Positions 4,199-40,135 of a stretch of DNA of 64,000 nt are shown here, piece after piece. The position numbers and the translations under genes are program-made. The notes under the pieces are model-generated. The model was not told where the DNA came from and ran no database searches. It saw nothing but the letters and a program-made list of their open reading frames with translations. The stretch's first letter is position 1; each line of letters begins with the position of its first letter. Where the stretch lies: NCBI RefSeq assembly GCF_901538355.1, contig NZ_LR593887.1:186001-250000 (forward strand). Direction: 5' to 3'. Source of the stretch: Tuwongella immobilis (GTDB lineage Bacteria > Planctomycetota > Planctomycetia > Gemmatales > Gemmataceae).

Positions 4199-7100
4199 TT
4201 AGCGGCTTCCACGGCTGGGGCGATGGATTCGCTCGCCGGGATGCCACTCCAACAATGTATTGAGATCCATTTGTGTGGCGAGTCGTTTCCCATCCGGCGA
4301 AAACTGCACCGGTCGCGCTCCAGTCCGGGGCAGATCGATTGAGAGTGTCGCCACGCCTTGCTGAAGATCCCAAAATCGCAGAAATCGCTCGCTTCCCGAT
4401 GTGACCAACGTGCGATTGTCGTTGCGACAATGGAGGTATTCCACCGGGTTGCTCAGCACCATTCGTTGCTGGATGGCGTGGTTGGCAAGTCGGATTTGGA
4501 CCAAGCCATCTTGCACGCGGTCGGTGGTCACCAGCAGCGATTCCCCGTTCGGGGTGAGCAGGATATTCGTGATTCGCCCGGTGAATTGAGCGATTTCGAC
4601 GGTCTGGCGAGTCGCGCGGTCCAGCCGCAGAATTTGCCCACGCGCGGTGCCCACGAGAAACGCGGTTCCATCCGGCGACACGACCAGCGAGCGGATGCCC
4701 GGAATCTGGGTTTGAATGGGTGGCAGCGGTTTGCCGGTGAGCGTTGACCAGACCTGGATGTCGGTGGTTTGAAGTGTGCCCATCAACTCCGAGCCATCCG
4801 GTGAAAAAATCAATTGATTCGGGATGGGGTTGGCATCGACGATTTGGCTTTGCACCCGGCCAGTCTGGGTGTCAACAATCGCAATGTGCCCATGAACGGT
4901 GCTAACGGCCAGCCGCGCTCCATCCGGCGAATAGACCATGGAGCGAATTTCCTTGGCCTGGATGATTTCGATTGGCGGATTCATTCCAACAAGCGGAATG
5001 ATGCGGAGAGAGCCGCTGCTGTCACCCATGGCAAGTTGCGTCATCTTTGGATGATAGGCAATTTGGGTGATTCGCCCGCGAGTGCCGGTGAAGTGGCGAC
5101 GCTGATGCGGGCGTTGGTGCAAGTCCCAGGCAAAAATTTCGCCCTGACTGGTCAAGCTGAATGCCCGGTCGCCGCGCAGGGTCGTTAGCACTTTCAACAC
5201 CGAACTGCGATGCCCCGTCAGCAGGGTGTGCCCTTTTTGGTTGTCGGGAATCGGCCAAATGCGCACGGCCTGATCGTTGCTGCTGGTCAGCAAGGTGCCA
5301 ATGCCCGCAGGCATGCAGATGGATAAAATGCGTGCCGGGGGGGTGGGAATGATCGGAAACGGCGGCCGACTCATCTCCGGCGTTGGGAACAGCAACATCT
5401 GGTAAATGGGGCCATCTTGCGTGACGATAAATGCTGTGCGCGCGTCTGGAGACAATTCGATATCGGTAATCGGGCCTGCCAGTGGTTCGGTGGTGTGCTG
5501 CAGTTGCCAGGTTTGCGTGCTCCAAAATCGCAAGCGACGATCGTGCCCACCCGTGAGGAAATAGTCCATGCGCGGTGCGGTCGCCACACAGCGCACCGCG
5601 CTGCTTTGCCGCTCCAGCGTGGTCAGCACGTTCCGGGTTGCCAGGCTCCAAACGCGAATGGTTTGGTCTTCGCTGGTGGTGACAATTTGATCGGTGGTGA
5701 GCATCGCCACATCGGTCACCGGGCCATCATGCTTCCCCAGGTGAATGGGGCGCCGATTCTCGGCAGGAATCAAAAAGACGTCACCTGCGCGGGTGCCGAC
5801 GATGATCATTTGATTGTGACTGAGCACCGTCATGCATTGCGCGTCGAGAATTCCCAAGGGCACATTCACCAGGGGGATTCCCGATTGCGGATGGATCGAT
5901 CGCAGGGTGCCTCGCGTGTCGATTGCCCACAAGTGGTCATTGCGAGGATCGATGGCGAATGCACCCAACGAGTCGGCCTGGAGGTTGGATTTCCAGGCGG
6001 ATTGATCGCACAACGATTGCACGAGTTCCCATTCCCAGCCGCGGAATTCGGGCGGGCAGGTTTCGAGCAATCGCTCGGCGCTGGCCACAGCCGGCACCAA
6101 GGTTTGACGATACGCTAATTCCACGGTGTGGTGGGCATCCATGCGCAGCAGTCGGCCAACGGCGGCTTGCTCGGCTTGTCGCGCGGCGATGGCCTCATCT
6201 CGGGCGCGGGCGGCAGCATCGCGGTCGGCTTCGGCCTGTTTTCGGGCGAGTTCCTCGTTGTGACGGGCGGTTTCCGTGGCTTGTTGCAAGTCGCTCAGCT
6301 GTTGCCGCGCTTCTTCTTCCCGAGCCAGCGATTGGATCGCACTGACGGCGAAAATCAACAACCCCGTCACGGTCACCGACAGAATGTAGGCAATCGCAAT
6401 CGTCGGCTTGCGACGCACCCATTTATTGATGCGCTCAAAGATGCCTGGTGGCCGAATCTTCAACGGCTCATCGTTGAGCCAGCGCTGCAACTCGTCGGCC
6501 AATTCGCCGGCGCTTGCGAAGCGTTCGGAGGGGATTTTCGCCAGGCAAGTGCTGACGATGCGCTCCAAATCCAGAGAGATTCCCGGCACTTTCTGCCGCA
6601 GCGACGGTGGATCATCGAATTGTACTTTGCTGAGCAATTTCCAAACGTCGGCATGTTCAAACGGCGGCTTTCCGCAGAGCATTTCGTACAGAATCACGCC
6701 CAATGCGTACACATCGGCGGCGGGGCCAACCGATTGGGTGCCGCCCCGCGCCTGCTCCGGAGACATGTAGACTGGCGTGCCCAGCACATCTTCGGCCTGG
6801 GTGAGATTGGAGCCGCCGTCGATTTTCGCCAACCCGAAATCGACGATCTTCGGTTGCCCATGGCCATCGAACAGCACGTTGGCGGGCTTCAAATCGCGGT
6901 GGACGATCCCGGCATCGTGGGCCGCTTGAATGCCGCGGGCGAGCTTTTCGAGAATGATTCCCGCCACACGAGATGGAATCGGCCCCTCGCGCTGCAAGCG
7001 ATCCGCCAGCGAACCACCGGGCAGATATTCCATCGCCAGGTACGGTTGCCCCTGGGCTTCGCCGAATTCGTAAATCCGCACGACGGATGGATGGTCAATC

Positions 7101-7597
7101 GCGGCAATTGCTTCGGCTTCCGCCAGAAAGCGAACCAGGTCAATGGTTTGCGCACGCTGATCGACCATCTTCAGCGCCACCGGCCGATTGATGGGCTGCT
7201 GCACCGCGTGGTAGACCCGCCCCATGCCGCCGCGACCCAACAGCCCCAGCAAGTGGTAGCCGGGAATCGTGATTCGGTTGGTCGGGAGCGGCTCGACGGA
7301 GTCGCCTTGGGCCAAGGGGGAGAATCCGCCTTCGAGCATCACCATCGAGGTGACATGCGTGATGGGTTGGGCCGGACTCGCATAATCACTTGTGGATCCA
7401 TACCGGGCCACACGAGAGGGGTGCAGCGCTTCCAGGACATCATCGGTCGATTCGTAAGCGATGTTCCCACGCGAGGAATGCTCGGTGGGTGCCGGAGGTG
7501 TTGGCGGGACGACGTGTAACCCGGTCGAGGAGAGATGCTCCGGCTTGCGCGGAGAATCTGGCAGGGTATGATCGGAATCCGAGTGTGGTACCGTCAT
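4199..7597 (-). CDS. Membrane Ser/Thr protein kinase with WD40-type propeller sensor
   Basis: Reading from ATG at 7666 (1155 residues), the kinase domain spans about 136-400: glycine loop GLLGRGGMGRV, Lys166, HRDLKPAN (Asp258), DFG (Asp276) and GTPVYMSPEQ, all intact. A transmembrane helix follows at about 421-443, then a charged coiled coil (about 445-505), then a long C-terminal region of WD40-like blades (DQTIRVWSL, DRRLRFWS, DQAVRIWPI) reaching the end. The kinase faces the cytoplasm and the propeller the outside or periplasm, a common planctomycete design. I prefer the second ATG at 7597, because the first overlaps a 15-bp palindrome and has no ribosome site; the choice is not settled. 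The pseudo-caspase gene is 170 bases upstream on the same strand. Confidence 0.88.
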   Translation of the reverse strand: MTVPHSDSDHTLPDSPRKPEHLSSTGLHVVPPTPPAPTEHSSRGNIAYESTDDVLEALHPSRVARYGSTSDYASPAQPITHVTSMVMLEGGFSPLAQGDSVEPLPTNRITIPGYHLLGLLGRGGMGRVYHAVQQPINRPVALKMVDQRAQTIDLVRFLAEAEAIAAIDHPSVVRIYEFGEAQGQPYLAMEYLPGGSLADRLQREGPIPSRVAGIILEKLARGIQAAHDAGIVHRDLKPANVLFDGHGQPKIVDFGLAKIDGGSNLTQAEDVLGTPVYMSPEQARGGTQSVGPAADVYALGVILYEMLCGKPPFEHADVWKLLSKVQFDDPPSLRQKVPGISLDLERIVSTCLAKIPSERFASAGELADELQRWLNDEPLKIRPPGIFERINKWVRRKPTIAIAYILSVTVTGLLIFAVSAIQSLAREEEARQQLSDLQQATETARHNEELARKQAEADRDAAARARDEAIAARQAEQAAVGRLLRMDAHHTVELAYRQTLVPAVASAERLLETCPPEFRGWEWELVQSLCDQSAWKSNLQADSLGAFAIDPRNDHLWAIDTRGTLRSIHPQSGIPLVNVPLGILDAQCMTVLSHNQMIIVGTRAGDVFLIPAENRRPIHLGKHDGPVTDVAMLTTDQIVTTSEDQTIRVWSLATRNVLTTLERQSSAVRCVATAPRMDYFLTGGHDRRLRFWSTQTWQLQHTTEPLAGPITDIELSPDARTAFIVTQDGPIYQMLLFPTPEMSRPPFPIIPTPPARILSICMPAGIGTLLTSSNDQAVRIWPIPDNQKGHTLLTGHRSSVLKVLTTLRGDRAFSLTSQGEIFAWDLHQRPHQRRHFTGTRGRITQIAYHPKMTQLAMGDSSGSLRIIPLVGMNPPIEIIQAKEIRSMVYSPDGARLAVSTVHGHIAIVDTQTGRVQSQIVDANPIPNQLIFSPDGSELMGTLQTTDIQVWSTLTGKPLPPIQTQIPGIRSLVVSPDGTAFLVGTARGQILRLDRATRQTVEIAQFTGRITNILLTPNGESLLVTTDRVQDGLVQIRLANHAIQQRMVLSNPVEYLHCRNDNRTLVTSGSERFLRFWDLQQGVATLSIDLPRTGARPVQFSPDGKRLATQMDLNTLLEWHPGERIHRPSRGSR

Positions 7598-7652
7598 GAC
7601 GCAGGCTCGACCATGGGCCAACGAATCACCCGAAGGCTGCTCCGAAGTATTG

Positions 7653-7667
7653 TATGCTCGGAGCATA
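7653..7667. promoter_or_regulatory. Perfect 15-bp palindrome at the 5' end of the kinase gene
   Basis: TATGCTC-G-GAGCATA is a perfect inverted repeat with a one-base centre. It lies about 56 bases upstream of the preferred kinase start (7597) and covers the alternative ATG. Its length and symmetry fit a dimeric repressor operator. No matching copy was noticed elsewhere in the window. Confidence 0.35.
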
Positions 7668-7838
7668 ATTCTGTGGGGAGCCTAGCACGGAAAAACCGAA
7701 GAAACGGTCGGAAATTGAGGATCTTTCACGAGTTTCGCGAGATTTGTTTCGGTGAAATGCGAATCCGGCCCGACAAGAGCCACCTCAATGGGCAGTCTCG
7801 TCGAGCCGGAGTGTGCGACCCGCATGGGCAACCGGCAA

Positions 7839-25534: not shown

Positions 25535-25711
25535 CCGTTTTCGTCCTTGAAAAGGAAGTCGGGAAGTTCAGGGTAGTGGGGGTAATATCACCCATGCGCT
25601 CAACTCGTGTCAATACCGACTGAGATTCGATTCCAGAAAGTTTTCGCTGTCGCATCGCCCGCGCTTCGGTGCCGATCCACCGCTCGCAACGATGAAAAAT
25701 CTGCGACATTG

Positions 25712-25739
25712 TTGCAAGGTTCGACCGCAAGGGTATACT
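25712..25739 (+). promoter_or_regulatory. Sigma-70-type promoter of the kinase gene
   Basis: TTGCAA (25712-25717) and TATACT (25734-25739), 16 bases apart, lie about 33 bases before ATG 25773. The match is four of six and five of six. It lies downstream of the first in-frame ATG (25692) and so argues for the later start. Confidence 0.5.
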
Positions 25740-25772
25740 ATTGGTCATCTCCATCCCGAGAGGTGCGCCGCG

Positions 25773-27740
25773 ATGCCTTCCCTACTCAAAATTGTCAACT
25801 TTGTTGTCGTCTCGGCGGTCGATTTGTTGCTTCCGGATTTCATTGATAAGCCCATTCGCGTGTGCCAACATTTTTACCGGCACTTCCTGGCGACCTCGCC
25901 CAATGAGCAATTGCAACTGCTGGCCGAGGGGCGGGAGTTGAGCGCGGCCCAAATCGATGACTGCGTGCAGCAAATTCTCGCCGGCTGGAAAGCCGCACTG
26001 CCACCAGGCGAATCGCTGCATCCGCAAGCGTCCATCTTGGCCTGGGAAATGGTGCAAGCGCTGTGCAAATCCGCCAGCAGCTCGCAACCCGCCGAGACAT
26101 TGCGTAAAACCTTGAACGAAACGACATTACGGCGAACCGGCGCATCCCTGGCCGCCGAGTCGATCACCCCCGAACAAGCGCGATTGGGCCGATTGTTGCT
26201 CACCACCCAATCGCAGCGGACGAAATCGGCATCCGCCACCAAAGCGACCGGTCCATTGCCCCAAGTGCCGGGCTACCGTCTGGAGCGACTGTTGGGTTCG
26301 GGCGGATTCGCGCAAGTGTTTCTGGCCCAACAGGAAGCGACGGGCGAATGGTGTGCCGTGAAGGTCGGCGCACTGCTGAACGAGACCCGATTCCGCCGCG
26401 AAAGCAGCATCGCCTTGTCGTTGCAGTCGCCGCGATTGGCACAATGTTTCGAAGCCGGAACGATTGCGGGCGATTTACCGCAATTCTGGCTGGCGATGGA
26501 ATATCTGCCGGGCCGGACATTGGCCGAAATTCTCTCCATCTCCCACGCTCGCCCCGATGCCGAAACCGCACTGGCCATCGCCTGCGAAATTTTGCAGGGA
26601 TTGGCAGCCATGCATCAGAAAGGCTTGATCCATCGCGATTTGAAGCCGGAAAACATCATGATTGATGATCGATTTTCCGTCAAATTAATCGACTTTGGAT
26701 TGGCCCGCCCGATCGAAGAATTATCCGTCACGCAAGACCGCCCCACCATTGCCGGTGACCTGCTGGGCACGCCCTTTTACATGAGTCCCGAACAGGCCGA
26801 CGGCGACGTGAATCTGACACCTACAACCGACTTATGGTCATTCGGCATCGTGGTTTACGAATTGCTCGTGGGCAAATTACCGTTCACAGGCCGCACGATT
26901 ATGGCCGTTGGCCGAGAAATCCACACCCGCGACATCGACTGGGACCAACCCGCAATCCCCGCCGAACTTCGCCCTATCCTGAAACGCTGCACCCAACGCG
27001 ACGTGGCGAAGCGACCCAATATCGCCACAGCGATCGTGACCGATTTGCAACGTGCCGTCGAGAATGCCGAAGCTCGGTTGCGGCAAGACCGACTGAGCGG
27101 AATGTGGGATCAATTGGTTGCGTCGGGGCTGTTGGAAAAACTGGTCGTGCATTGGCATGGGCAACTGCCGGAAAACGCCTTGGATCAAGTCGCTCGGCAA
27201 GCCGCAAAACGGGGGATTCCTGAAATCGATCGCAAACGCGTGGCGAAAGTGCTCAAACCACTTTGCGATGCTCAGCTTGAGGTCGAAACGAGCAACCGCC
27301 GACTGGTGGAATTGAAACAACAATTGTCGAGCGATTTGGTCGGGCTGTCGGGTGCGCAGTTGCAGATTCGCTCGCAGGAAGTGCAATCCGCCGAATCCGT
27401 AGCCGAAAAGGCCCAGCGGAAATTTGACAGTGTGGTCAAAAAATCACTCGGGAGTGCGTCGTCGGACACATTTCAGAGTTCGACGCAGTCACAGAATTCG
27501 ACTTCGAGTTCGAGTTCGAGTGGTTCTCGCAAACGACTGCCGTTGATTTTTCGCGTGATGGTGGCGATTGCAATCTTCGGGATCGGATGTTCTGGGATCA
27601 CAATCGTCATGGTTTCGCTGTTCTCAGGTGGCGTATCCGCCACCGCTTCCGGCGAAAAAAAGTGGGGAGCCTATCCAACCACTCTGTCCACTCCGACCAC
27701 ATCGTACCAGTATTTTCCGTATGATGTTCAGAAGAAGTGA
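25773..27740 (+). CDS. Ser/Thr protein kinase with C-terminal membrane anchor
   Basis: GAGAGG nine bases upstream and the promoter at 25712 support ATG 25773 (655 residues). The first 150 residues form an uncharacterised helical domain. The kinase domain (about 167-430) has RLLGSGGFAQVF, the AVKV lysine, HRDLKPEN, DFGLA and GTPFYMSPEQ, all intact. A helical, coiled-coil-prone region follows (about 435-590), then a Ser/Thr/Gln-rich linker and one transmembrane helix near the C-terminus (LIFRVMVAIAIFGIGCSGITIVMVSLF region). The outside part is only about 35 residues, so unlike the WD40 kinase it has no external sensor. Its activity is probably controlled by the N-terminal domain. The small membrane protein gene starts 73 bases downstream. 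Confidence 0.87.
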   Translation: MPSLLKIVNFVVVSAVDLLLPDFIDKPIRVCQHFYRHFLATSPNEQLQLLAEGRELSAAQIDDCVQQILAGWKAALPPGESLHPQASILAWEMVQALCKSASSSQPAETLRKTLNETTLRRTGASLAAESITPEQARLGRLLLTTQSQRTKSASATKATGPLPQVPGYRLERLLGSGGFAQVFLAQQEATGEWCAVKVGALLNETRFRRESSIALSLQSPRLAQCFEAGTIAGDLPQFWLAMEYLPGRTLAEILSISHARPDAETALAIACEILQGLAAMHQKGLIHRDLKPENIMIDDRFSVKLIDFGLARPIEELSVTQDRPTIAGDLLGTPFYMSPEQADGDVNLTPTTDLWSFGIVVYELLVGKLPFTGRTIMAVGREIHTRDIDWDQPAIPAELRPILKRCTQRDVAKRPNIATAIVTDLQRAVENAEARLRQDRLSGMWDQLVASGLLEKLVVHWHGQLPENALDQVARQAAKRGIPEIDRKRVAKVLKPLCDAQLEVETSNRRLVELKQQLSSDLVGLSGAQLQIRSQEVQSAESVAEKAQRKFDSVVKKSLGSASSDTFQSSTQSQNSTSSSSSSGSRKRLPLIFRVMVAIAIFGIGCSGITIVMVSLFSGGVSATASGEKKWGAYPTTLSTPTTSYQYFPYDVQKK

Positions 27741-28371: not shown

Positions 28372-28543
28372 CGAATTGGCGGAAAAACCGAAAGAGTTCC
28401 CCTAGAGGAAACAGTTGCGGGGGTGTACAATCGCTAATAGGGTTGATTGGTAGCGTCGGGCAAGTGTCTTGACCCAATCCATCCCACGAACTCTTTTTTG
28501 ATGAAGCTCCGGCGTTGTGCCGGGGATTGGAAACCCTTCCCTT

Positions 28544-30397
<1,854 letters not shown>

Positions 30398-33361: not shown

Positions 33362-33629
33362 CGGGTTACTCACAGGATTGTGTGCAGGGCGACAGCACCC
33401 CTATCGTAAATTCTTCTGCTTTCGGCGTCAAATCTCAGATCCGACAAATCTGATTTCCAAAATGATGCGGGATTTCCGACGGAATCTGCTCGCCGGAATC
33501 AAATTTTGTGTGCTACGATCATCAAACGCTCCTGATTGTTCGCGGCATTGCTGACGATGCGGTTCTTGGTGGTTTCCCACACAAGAGATTTTTCAAGTCA
33601 CGACCGGTTTCCCGGGGTTGGCTCATATC

Positions 33630-35840
33630 ATGAAACAGCCACCTGATCGTTGGTTGGAACAACTGCTCCTCGAAGGGGTGCTGATCCCCGAGGATTGGGA
33701 GGCACTTTCGGAAGACAAGCGCGCGGATATCTGCCGACTCACCAATCGAGATGCGGCGATTAGTGCGTTGGTGGAAGCGAAACTGCTGACGACCTTTCAG
33801 GCGTACCGTCTTCGCTATGGGAGTTGCGAAGGACTGGTGCTGGGGAATTATCGCTTAATTGATCGAATTGGTGCCGGTGGCATGGCGACGGTGTTTCGTG
33901 CCGAGCATCGCCGACTGCGTCAAGCGGTGGCCATCAAGGTGTATGTGGCCTCGGCCGATCAGGATCCGCGGTCGCTGACCCGCTTCTATACCGAAGCCCG
34001 CGCCATTGCCCGATTGCAGCATCCGCACATTCTGCATGCCATCGATGCCGGTGAAGTATTGGTGCAACAGGTTCCCTGGCATTACTTTGTGACGGAACTC
34101 ATTCCCGGTCGCAATCTCGAAACCATCGTCCAAGATGATGGTCCGCTCGATCCGCCGCAGGCATGTTCGCTGATTCATCAGATTGCCGATGCCCTTCAGG
34201 CCGCCCATGAAGCTGGGCTCATTCATCGGGATATCAAACCGTCGAATATTATGGTGACGCCCGATGGACAGGCCAAATTGCTCGATTTCGGTCTGACACT
34301 CGCTCCGGGGTCGCGGCGAGTGACCGATCCCGGGGCAATTCTGGGAACGGTGGGATACATCGCCCCCGAACAGGTGCGCGACGCCACACGAGTCGATGCA
34401 CGGGCCGATTTGTTTTCGCTTGGTTGTACGCTATTTTGGGCATTGACGGGGACCGATCCATTTCCATCGCATACGGGTGCGATCCAGGATTTGTTGCGGC
34501 GTTTGAATCAAGCCCCCCCGTCCGCTCGGGCCATTCGTCCCAGTTTACCGTTGGCATTGGACTTGTTGATTCAGCGGCTGATGGACCCAAACCCTGATCT
34601 GCGTTACCCTTCCGCTCAAGCGGTGATGGGGGTGTTGTATCCGTTTTGGGATGCTCGCCATCACGATTTGCCCGTCTCGCTGCCGACGATTGCGGAGAGT
34701 CGCGGGCCGGTTGCGCTGCCGACGTTCGCTTCCGGGGCTCCTCGCCAACATCGAGTGCTGATCGCCGATGATGAACGCTCCATTCGCATGCTCTGTTCCA
34801 GTGCTTTGCAGAACGACCGAATGCTCGTAGATGTGGTGGATAATGGCCGAGATGCGATTGATTATTTGATGAAGCAGTCGGCAGATTTGCTGTTGCTGGA
34901 CATCAACATGCCGGAAATCAACGGCGTGGAGGTGTTGCGGTATGTTCGAGAATTGAATCAACACACGCATCTGAAAGTGATGATGTTCTCGGGGCACTCT
35001 TCCAGTGACGAATTGGCCCGGTTACTGTCAGAAGGTGCCGATGACTTTCTCATTAAACCCTTTAGCATTGTGCAGTTACGCGCACGGGTCCGAAATGTGC
35101 TGCGGCTCAAAGATGTGCAAGAGCGATCGGATCAACTCAATCAGCATCTCTTGGCGGTGAATTCGGAGTTGGAGCGAAATCTGCAAATTCACGACGGCGA
35201 TCTGTTGCGGTCCCGGGGGGCGTTGGTGCTGGCCGTTACCAAATTGGTCGAGCAACGCACGCATGAATCCGCAGCGCATCTCCTTCGCCTGCAACGGAAT
35301 GCGCGATTGCTCTGCGAAGAAGCGGCACAAATGGCCGGCTTCCAAGGGCTGATGGATGAGACATTCATTCGCACACTTGAGGACAGCATCCCACTTCACG
35401 ATATTGGTAAGATCGCGCTGCCGGATTACATCCTCTTGAAGCCGGGCCGGTTGGATGCGGAGGAGCGGTTATATATGGAGGCACACACCACGATTGGAGC
35501 GACGACCTTGGCGGAAGTTGTTCGTGTGCATGGGTTTGCGGCGGGGTTCCTGCAAATGGCCGTCGATGTGGCGCGGCATCATCATGAACGCTGGGACGGC
35601 AACGGCTATCCGGATCGGCTTTCGGGGATTGACATTCCCCTCGCCGCGCGGATTACCACCATCGTCGATGTCTACGATGCCCTTCGTTCGCAACGGAATT
35701 ATAAGCCGGCATTGTCCCATCATTCGGCGATGGCCGCGATGTTGCAGGCATCCGAAGGGCAATTCGATCCACAATTGCTGCAAGCCTTTGCGCGAATTGC
35801 CCCGCAGATGGAGCGGATATTTCGAGAGATGCCCAATTAA
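33630..35840 (+). CDS. Ser/Thr kinase - response regulator receiver - HD-GYP fusion protein
   Basis: From ATG 33630 there are 736 residues (a TTG at 33618 is an alternative). A short helical N-terminal domain (about 1-65) is followed by a complete Hanks kinase (72-335: GAGGMATVF, Lys103, HRDIKPSN Asp201, DFG Asp219, GTVGYIAPEQ). Next is a CheY-like receiver (about 374-492: acidic pair Asp380/Asp381, phosphoacceptor Asp424 in LLLLDINMPE, FSGHSS, Lys476). A helical linker leads to an HD-GYP domain (about 530-730: HDIGKIALPD with His590/Asp591, ILLKPGRL, HHERWDGNGYPDRLSG). All key catalytic residues are present in all three modules. HD-GYP domains hydrolyse cyclic di-GMP (or cGAMP). No transmembrane segment is seen. 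The gene faces the epimerase-like gene with only 6 bases between stops. Confidence 0.9.
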   Translation: MKQPPDRWLEQLLLEGVLIPEDWEALSEDKRADICRLTNRDAAISALVEAKLLTTFQAYRLRYGSCEGLVLGNYRLIDRIGAGGMATVFRAEHRRLRQAVAIKVYVASADQDPRSLTRFYTEARAIARLQHPHILHAIDAGEVLVQQVPWHYFVTELIPGRNLETIVQDDGPLDPPQACSLIHQIADALQAAHEAGLIHRDIKPSNIMVTPDGQAKLLDFGLTLAPGSRRVTDPGAILGTVGYIAPEQVRDATRVDARADLFSLGCTLFWALTGTDPFPSHTGAIQDLLRRLNQAPPSARAIRPSLPLALDLLIQRLMDPNPDLRYPSAQAVMGVLYPFWDARHHDLPVSLPTIAESRGPVALPTFASGAPRQHRVLIADDERSIRMLCSSALQNDRMLVDVVDNGRDAIDYLMKQSADLLLLDINMPEINGVEVLRYVRELNQHTHLKVMMFSGHSSSDELARLLSEGADDFLIKPFSIVQLRARVRNVLRLKDVQERSDQLNQHLLAVNSELERNLQIHDGDLLRSRGALVLAVTKLVEQRTHESAAHLLRLQRNARLLCEEAAQMAGFQGLMDETFIRTLEDSIPLHDIGKIALPDYILLKPGRLDAEERLYMEAHTTIGATTLAEVVRVHGFAAGFLQMAVDVARHHHERWDGNGYPDRLSGIDIPLAARITTIVDVYDALRSQRNYKPALSHHSAMAAMLQASEGQFDPQLLQAFARIAPQMERIFREMPN

Positions 35841-39148: not shown

Positions 39149-39568
39149 TCATTCGCGGGTCTTGGTCATGGTGACGACATTGCCTTTGCCGTGGTAGACC
39201 AATTCGGTCATGTAATAGCGCATGAGCAGCAGTCCACGCCCGCATTCCCGTTCGAGGTTTTCCGGGTCGCAGGGGTCGGGGACATCATCGGGATCGAAGC
39301 CTGGGCCTTCGTCGGCGATGCGAATATGGAAGCGATTGGGCGAGATTTGGTAGAGGATTTCCACGCGTTTGGCGGGGTCCATCTGGTTGCCATGCTTGAT
39401 TGCGTTGACGAGTGCTTCTTCAACTGCCAATTTGATGGCAAAGACGTCTTCTTCGGCGTATCCTTGGTTTTGGAGGGCTTCGGCGACGTCGGCTTGAATG
39501 CGGCGTGCCTCGCCGAGGTCGCTTGGAATGTTCTCTTCTCGATGGATTGGGCCGTTCGCAATCGACAT
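39149..39568 (-). CDS. Anti-sigma regulatory factor (RsbW/SpoIIAB-type serine kinase)
   Basis: The 139-residue protein is the full length of this family. The GHKL ATPase boxes are present: N-box EEALVNAIKHGN, G1 box DEGPGFDPDDVP and the G2-type CGRGLLLMRYYMTEL. In partner switching such a kinase binds a sigma factor or response module and phosphorylates a STAS antagonist. The STAS gene lies upstream on the same strand 204 bases away, supporting a pair. No PP2C phosphatase is adjacent. Confidence 0.85.
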   Translation of the reverse strand: MSIANGPIHREENIPSDLGEARRIQADVAEALQNQGYAEEDVFAIKLAVEEALVNAIKHGNQMDPAKRVEILYQISPNRFHIRIADEGPGFDPDDVPDPCDPENLERECGRGLLLMRYYMTELVYHGKGNVVTMTKTRE

Positions 39569-39772: not shown

Positions 39773-40135
39773 TTAGAAGGAAGCCAGTGCTTCGGATTCT
39801 GTGGCTTTGATTTTGAACAGCTTGTCTAAGCGGGTGATCTTAAAGACTTCGCTGATTTCCTTGGAGATGCCGCAGAGCACGAGCGTGCCTTTGACGCCTT
39901 GCAGCTTGCGGTTGAGGTTAATCAGCTTCCCCAGGGCGGCGGAGGAGAGGAATTCGACGCGGCTGAAGTTCAAGAGAATCTTTCGGCGGCCGAGTTCTTC
40001 CACCAGACGCACCAGATCTTCCCCAATGGCATTGATGTTTTGTTCGTCGATGATTTTATTGTCGATGAACGTGACCACTGCGATATCGCCGTGATCTTCG
40101 ACATCGAGACGCCGCTTGCGGGGTTGCGAAGTCAT
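39773..40135 (-). CDS. STAS-domain anti-sigma factor antagonist (SpoIIAA-type)
   Basis: The 120-residue single STAS domain starts at an ATG with GGGAG ten bases upstream. The strand-helix pattern is typical: VVTFIDNKIIDEQNINAIGEDLVRLVEE, then KILLNFSRVEFLSSAALGKLINLNRKL, then GTLVLCGISKEISEVFKITRL. The phosphorylatable serine aligns with Ser65 in FLSSAALG, where SpoIIAA has DSSGLG; the preceding Asp is Ser64 here. It is expected to bind the anti-sigma factor encoded downstream. Confidence 0.86.
   Translation of the reverse strand: MTSQPRKRRLDVEDHGDIAVVTFIDNKIIDEQNINAIGEDLVRLVEELGRRKILLNFSRVEFLSSAALGKLINLNRKLQGVKGTLVLCGISKEISEVFKITRLDKLFKIKATESEALASF

Follow-up and report, generated by a model that had tools for sequence, protein, structure and literature searches.

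A single gene of the planctomycete Tuwongella immobilis (Gemmataceae), lying in a 64,000-nucleotide stretch of its genome (the window, here the whole of the DNA analysed), encodes one soluble chain of 736 residues in which a Hanks Ser/Thr kinase, a response-regulator receiver (REC) and an HD-GYP domain are all complete – a claim of an earlier note on this DNA that both Pfam and the catalytic residues bear out. We read the protein as a two-output response regulator, whose REC would be the shared input to a separable Ser/Thr kinase and a c-di-GMP phosphodiesterase, and give this reading a probability of about one half. Each of the modules is textbook; their combination is apparently undescribed, and the natural series of losses among its relatives is the more interesting part.

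The gene is a single intact frame, translated from an ATG at 33630 to a lone stop at 35840 on the + strand; the enclosing open frame begins at 33555, and an alternative TTG start at 33618 would give 740 aa. Since the genes on both sides, for a HEAT-repeat protein and a dTDP-sugar-epimerase-like protein, lie on the opposite strand, it is probably a single-gene unit. The parts are arranged as follows.

33630..35840, + strand: complete gene, 736 aa (open reading frame and translation)
33630..33839, + strand: N-terminal helical domain, residues 1–70 (no Pfam match; AlphaFold2 helices at 5–63)
33849..34622, + strand: Hanks Ser/Thr kinase, residues 74–331 (Pfam Pkinase)
34755..35093, + strand: receiver (REC), residues 376–488 (Pfam Response_reg)
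35067..35252, + strand: long continuous helix from REC to HD-GYP, residues 480–541 (AlphaFold2, pLDDT about 74–96)
35229..35828, + strand: HD-GYP domain, residues about 534–733 (Pfam HD_5 at 556–716; alignment to 4mcw and 4r8z)

All three Pfam matches of the 736-aa protein exceed the curated cut-offs and are far beyond chance (Pkinase 5e-43, Response_reg 7.7e-28, HD_5 1.9e-25). The kinase has the whole Hanks set: a Gly loop (81–86), the VAIK Lys (K103, at 33936), the helix-C Glu (E122), HRDxKxxN (HRD 199–201, K203, N206) and DFG (219–221), with T232 in the place of the PknB activation-loop Thr (the VT position) and conserved in 112 of 115 full-length members. The receiver carries the acidic pair D380 and D381, the acceptor D424 (34899–34901), S454 and K476 (35055–35057). 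Alignment to 4mcw and 4r8z finds every metal ligand of the HD-GYP domain (E546, H550, H590, D591, H619, H651, H652 and D680), and both the HD pair and HHExxDGxGYP are present, the latter as HHERWDGNGYP at 651–661. K103, D201, D219, D424, K476, H590–D591 and G659–Y660–P661 all stand at the positions first assigned to them. Judged by these residues, the three modules would each be active.

Structure prediction with AlphaFold2 (33-sequence alignment) gave well-formed domains at a mean pLDDT of 86, their placement relative to one another being uncertain (pTM 0.49). In Foldseek searches the kinase half matched PknB, and the HD-GYP domain matched PA4781 (4r8z) with a TM score of 0.93 at 1.5 Å. Other kinases of the host genome match the N-terminal region from residues 3–46 onward, and a helical N-terminal domain of about 65 residues without a Pfam match is common to several of them (L007, L008 and others). 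The window itself holds further Hanks-kinase frames, at 25551–27737 (+, 729 codons, confirmed by Pfam) and at 4202–7681 (−, 1160 codons).

That a sequencing or assembly artefact fused two genes has a negligible probability: a few relatives are indeed split by frame changes (L129, L130, L131 and L141), but dozens of genomes, several assembled as single contigs, have unbroken frames with the same domain order. Because many genomes have homologues of equal length uninterrupted by a stop, the frameshift or assembly join that the earlier note had named as fatal to its claim is excluded. Nor is the architecture unique to this genome, kinase–REC–HD-GYP proteins having turned up in many planctomycete genomes. 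Of 102 genomes of the host's order, 72 gave a match at E below 1e-90, and in about 68 at least one homologue spans all three domains. By contrast with the order, a further 391 genomes sampled from the phylum gave no match at 1e-80; in a class-wide draw of 297 genomes the full architecture occurred, among the matches listed, in the host's order only; and a scan of genome contigs added two full-length members, both planctomycete, the remaining matches being REC–HD-GYP only. A planctomycete outside the order has a kinase-less REC–HD-GYP protein of 45% identity (L275:3180-4499, +), and one genome, G032, has tandem full-length copies of subfamily II, described below (L123:3317-5614 and L123:5942-8281). 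Matches over 7–494 were considered as a kinase–REC type with another ending: of these, four (two loci of G032, with G033 and G090) turned out to span the full length, their HD-GYP domain being degenerate, and the remainder are truncated by contig ends or interrupted by a frame change.

The trees of both halves support, as the simplest reading, a single ancient fusion that probably took place at the base of the host's order. In the kinase tree all fusions form one clade (support 99) against 25 other kinases (23 of this genome and two from relatives), and a second kinase tree recovers the clade at 100/99 against 13 others; in the REC–HD-GYP tree the fusions group with their kinase-less relatives in a single clade (support 95) against 28 other bacterial REC–HD-GYP proteins. 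One fusion in the order's ancestor, followed by duplication and loss, is the simplest account.

What happened to the fusion afterwards can be followed in an alignment of 115 full-length members and 18 kinase-less forms. The kinase residues K/E/D/N/D are all intact in 109 of the 115. Subfamily I (56 members, including the window protein), which is the remainder once subfamilies II and III are removed rather than a clade, keeps the kinase residues in 51/54, the REC site in 54/54 and the HD-GYP core in 51/54. Subfamily II (46 members) keeps the kinase in every copy (46/46) and the REC D/D/K residues in 38/46, with an intact HD-GYP core in none (0/46): D680 is replaced by Ser, Ala or other residues, H590 often by Tyr and K594 often by Leu or Met, while HHE..DG.GYP, D591 and H619 are retained. 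In subfamily III (12 members) kinase and HD-GYP are intact throughout (12/12 each) and the REC site in 5/12; the host genome's second copy, at C1:2678033-2680150, belongs here, its acceptor Asp and its Lys both having been lost.

Single domains have also been lost outright. The kinase-less REC–HD-GYP proteins nest inside the fusion clade, within subfamily I, and kinase loss requires at least six changes on the tree, counting deletions together with the dead-kinase copies L199, L209 and L231. Eight kinase-less copies have clean flanks without kinase remains; L129, L130, L131, L134, L141, L196, L235, L237 and L238 were excluded from the clean losses on account of frame splits or contig edges. 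The kinase-deleted and kinase-dead forms all keep REC and HD-GYP intact, and every kinase-less form counted (15/15) keeps all eight HD-GYP ligands. L132 is a kinase–HD-GYP protein without REC, and L273 and L274, from two genomes outside the host's order, are kinase–REC proteins without HD-GYP that nest inside subfamily I and for that reason were probably acquired from the host's order. Among 119 rows there was no double loss of kinase and HD-GYP, a decayed outlier being set aside; in that outlier (L241:729-2837) the sites of kinase, REC and HD-GYP are all degenerate and the frame is still long and open. With few independent events – six losses, about 69% of tree length lying outside subfamily II – the tendency of kinase loss and HD-GYP loss to exclude each other is only suggestive and not significant (roughly 0.1).

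Purifying selection acts on all three domains. Across 17 close pairs dN/dS was 0.00–0.26 in every domain, and 0.03–0.17 in the degenerate HD-GYP of subfamily II; as it is at most 0.26, no domain is drifting freely, the degenerate one included. HD-GYP is the more constrained domain in 6/8 pairs of subfamily I and the kinase is as constrained or more so in 7/7 pairs of subfamily II, a comparison that gives an indication rather than a test because the pairs share some sequences.

It is this pattern – REC–HD-GYP surviving loss of the kinase, the kinase surviving decay of HD-GYP, and no phosphosite tying the one to the other – that makes us prefer a shared receiver with two outputs. A histidine kinase encoded elsewhere, the presumed donor, would phosphorylate Asp424 of REC; the last helix of REC, continuous with a 60-residue linker, would unmask HD-GYP and so allow c-di-GMP hydrolysis; and the same state of REC would control the N-terminal Hanks kinase as well, whose phosphorylation targets would be its own. 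These outputs would be separable, duplicated copies having specialised by loss of one part. Gating of HD-GYP by REC is suggested by analogy with PA4781, in which the HD-GYP active site is blocked by unphosphorylated REC and acetyl phosphate restores activity (PMC3774798). For the kinase, co-retention in the sequences hints at control by REC, because subfamily II and the kinase–REC proteins keep REC where the kinase is the sole apparent catalytic output.

One may tentatively go further and see REC as a two-way hub that switches both Hanks kinase and phosphodiesterase, with the broken HD-GYP of subfamily II turned into a c-di-GMP-binding regulator of the kinase – a possibility we regard as doubtful. 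If it were true, subfamily II would be a Ser/Thr kinase gated by both a His–Asp phosphorelay and c-di-GMP.

Alternatively, the kinase could be the output proper and HD-GYP a sensor of c-di-GMP, whose binding or hydrolysis would, together with REC, switch Ser/Thr phosphorylation. Subfamilies II and III have an intact kinase throughout (58/58 copies), the degenerate HD-GYP of subfamily II is under purifying selection with its motif residues partly kept, and there is a precedent in Pseudomonas PA2572, whose YN-GYP signature marks a catalytically inactive yet regulatory domain (PMC3774798). However, the metal ligands are retained in subfamily I, which includes the window protein and has repeatedly persisted without a kinase, so that sensing for the kinase cannot be the only role of HD-GYP there, and we consider this account unlikely for the protein.

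The earlier note had proposed another form of coupling, in which the kinase phosphorylates, or is gated together with, its own REC, linker or HD-GYP, both jointly setting c-di-GMP hydrolysis as a single output. In subfamily I the three sites are all intact and HD-GYP is usually the more constrained half, and response regulators such as DosR of M. tuberculosis are reportedly phosphorylated by Hanks kinases (PMC12919924). The loss series nevertheless speaks against joint control of one output, insofar as REC–HD-GYP is left fully intact by at least six kinase losses and 46 relatives (46/46) keep an intact kinase although the metal ligands of their HD-GYP are lost. Moreover, among the Ser and Thr residues of REC, linker and HD-GYP, none is kept in kinase-bearing and lost in kinase-less copies, a comparison of low power, and the idea that the kinase modifies the C-terminal half of its own chain is thus unsupported. 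That the kinase sets hydrolysis within the same molecule is possible, albeit with no support gained here, and we rate the single-output proposal as unlikely.

Still less probable – indeed very unlikely – is mere tethering, in which the modules would have localisation or expression in common but no allosteric coupling. Every two-part combination does exist as a derived form, and interdomain packing is of low confidence at the pTM given above; yet the domain order is conserved across the host's order, a single long helix is predicted for the linker, and domain losses accompany shifts in constraint.

The genomic surroundings offer little guidance to the partners of the proposed two-output regulator: across 37 compared loci there was no conserved neighbourhood or operon and no adjacent histidine kinase, nor was a histidine kinase found near 33630–35840 among the window genes named by Pfam. 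Elsewhere in the window, an RsbW-like HATPase adjoins a STAS protein (39149–39568 and 39773–40135, −) as an anti-sigma/anti-anti-sigma-like pair, and a frame at 28517–30397 (+) with six S1 repeats resembles ribosomal protein S1. As for the second messenger, the host genome, a single contig of 6.69 Mb, has four GGDEF domains (one in a GGDEF–EAL protein), one EAL, two PilZ and four HD-GYP domains, two of the four HD-GYP proteins being of the kinase–REC–HD-GYP kind. Both GG[DE]EF and the guanine-contacting Asp typical of diguanylate cyclases are present in three of the four GGDEF domains; c-di-GMP is therefore likely present in the host and is probably the substrate of the window HD-GYP. Another HD-GYP protein of the genome, in the region G000:C1:679553-680053 (L266:352-2094, +), has the order FHA–GAF–HD-GYP. 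FHA domains read phospho-Thr, and this protein may be a second link from Ser/Thr kinases to c-di-GMP turnover.

Among known systems, the closest are REC–HD-GYP regulators of the RpfG/PA4781 type, which have the same arrangement (the window HD-GYP is 38% identical to PA4781, 4r8z). The window protein differs in adding a helical domain and a whole Hanks kinase before REC, so that it is not REC plus HD-GYP only, and in having no cognate histidine kinase nearby. PknB, PknA and PknE-type kinases are the best sequence and structural matches of the kinase half (about 35% identity), whereas the window protein has no evident PASTA or transmembrane part and is fused to REC–HD-GYP. A Clostridium thermocellum protein with Ser/Thr kinase, TPR and GGDEF (Krupa and Srinivasan 2005, PMC1262709) likewise joins a Hanks kinase to a c-di-GMP enzyme, but one for synthesis and without a receiver. 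Cyanobacterial dual kinases, which are a Hanks kinase plus a histidine kinase (PMC1262709), combine Hanks and two-component parts in one chain, but with a transmitter rather than a receiver with an output enzyme. PA2572 keeps a degenerate HD-GYP for regulation, as proposed for subfamily II, but is not described as joined to a Hanks kinase (PMC3774798). Planctomycete kinases are known for varied architectures (PMC11032199); no description of kinase–REC–HD-GYP was found in the literature, although the supplements of that kinome study may list it.

The kinase-less, receiver-less, HD-GYP-less and active-site-dead relatives together make up a natural set of variants bearing on the mutual control of the parts, and make it testable whether a receiver gates a Hanks kinase and whether a Hanks kinase shares its switch with c-di-GMP turnover. 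The usual view of Ser/Thr kinases, two-component relays and c-di-GMP is one of parallel systems that cross-talk via separate proteins; here, the three appear as one gene product, and have done so since the base of the host's order.
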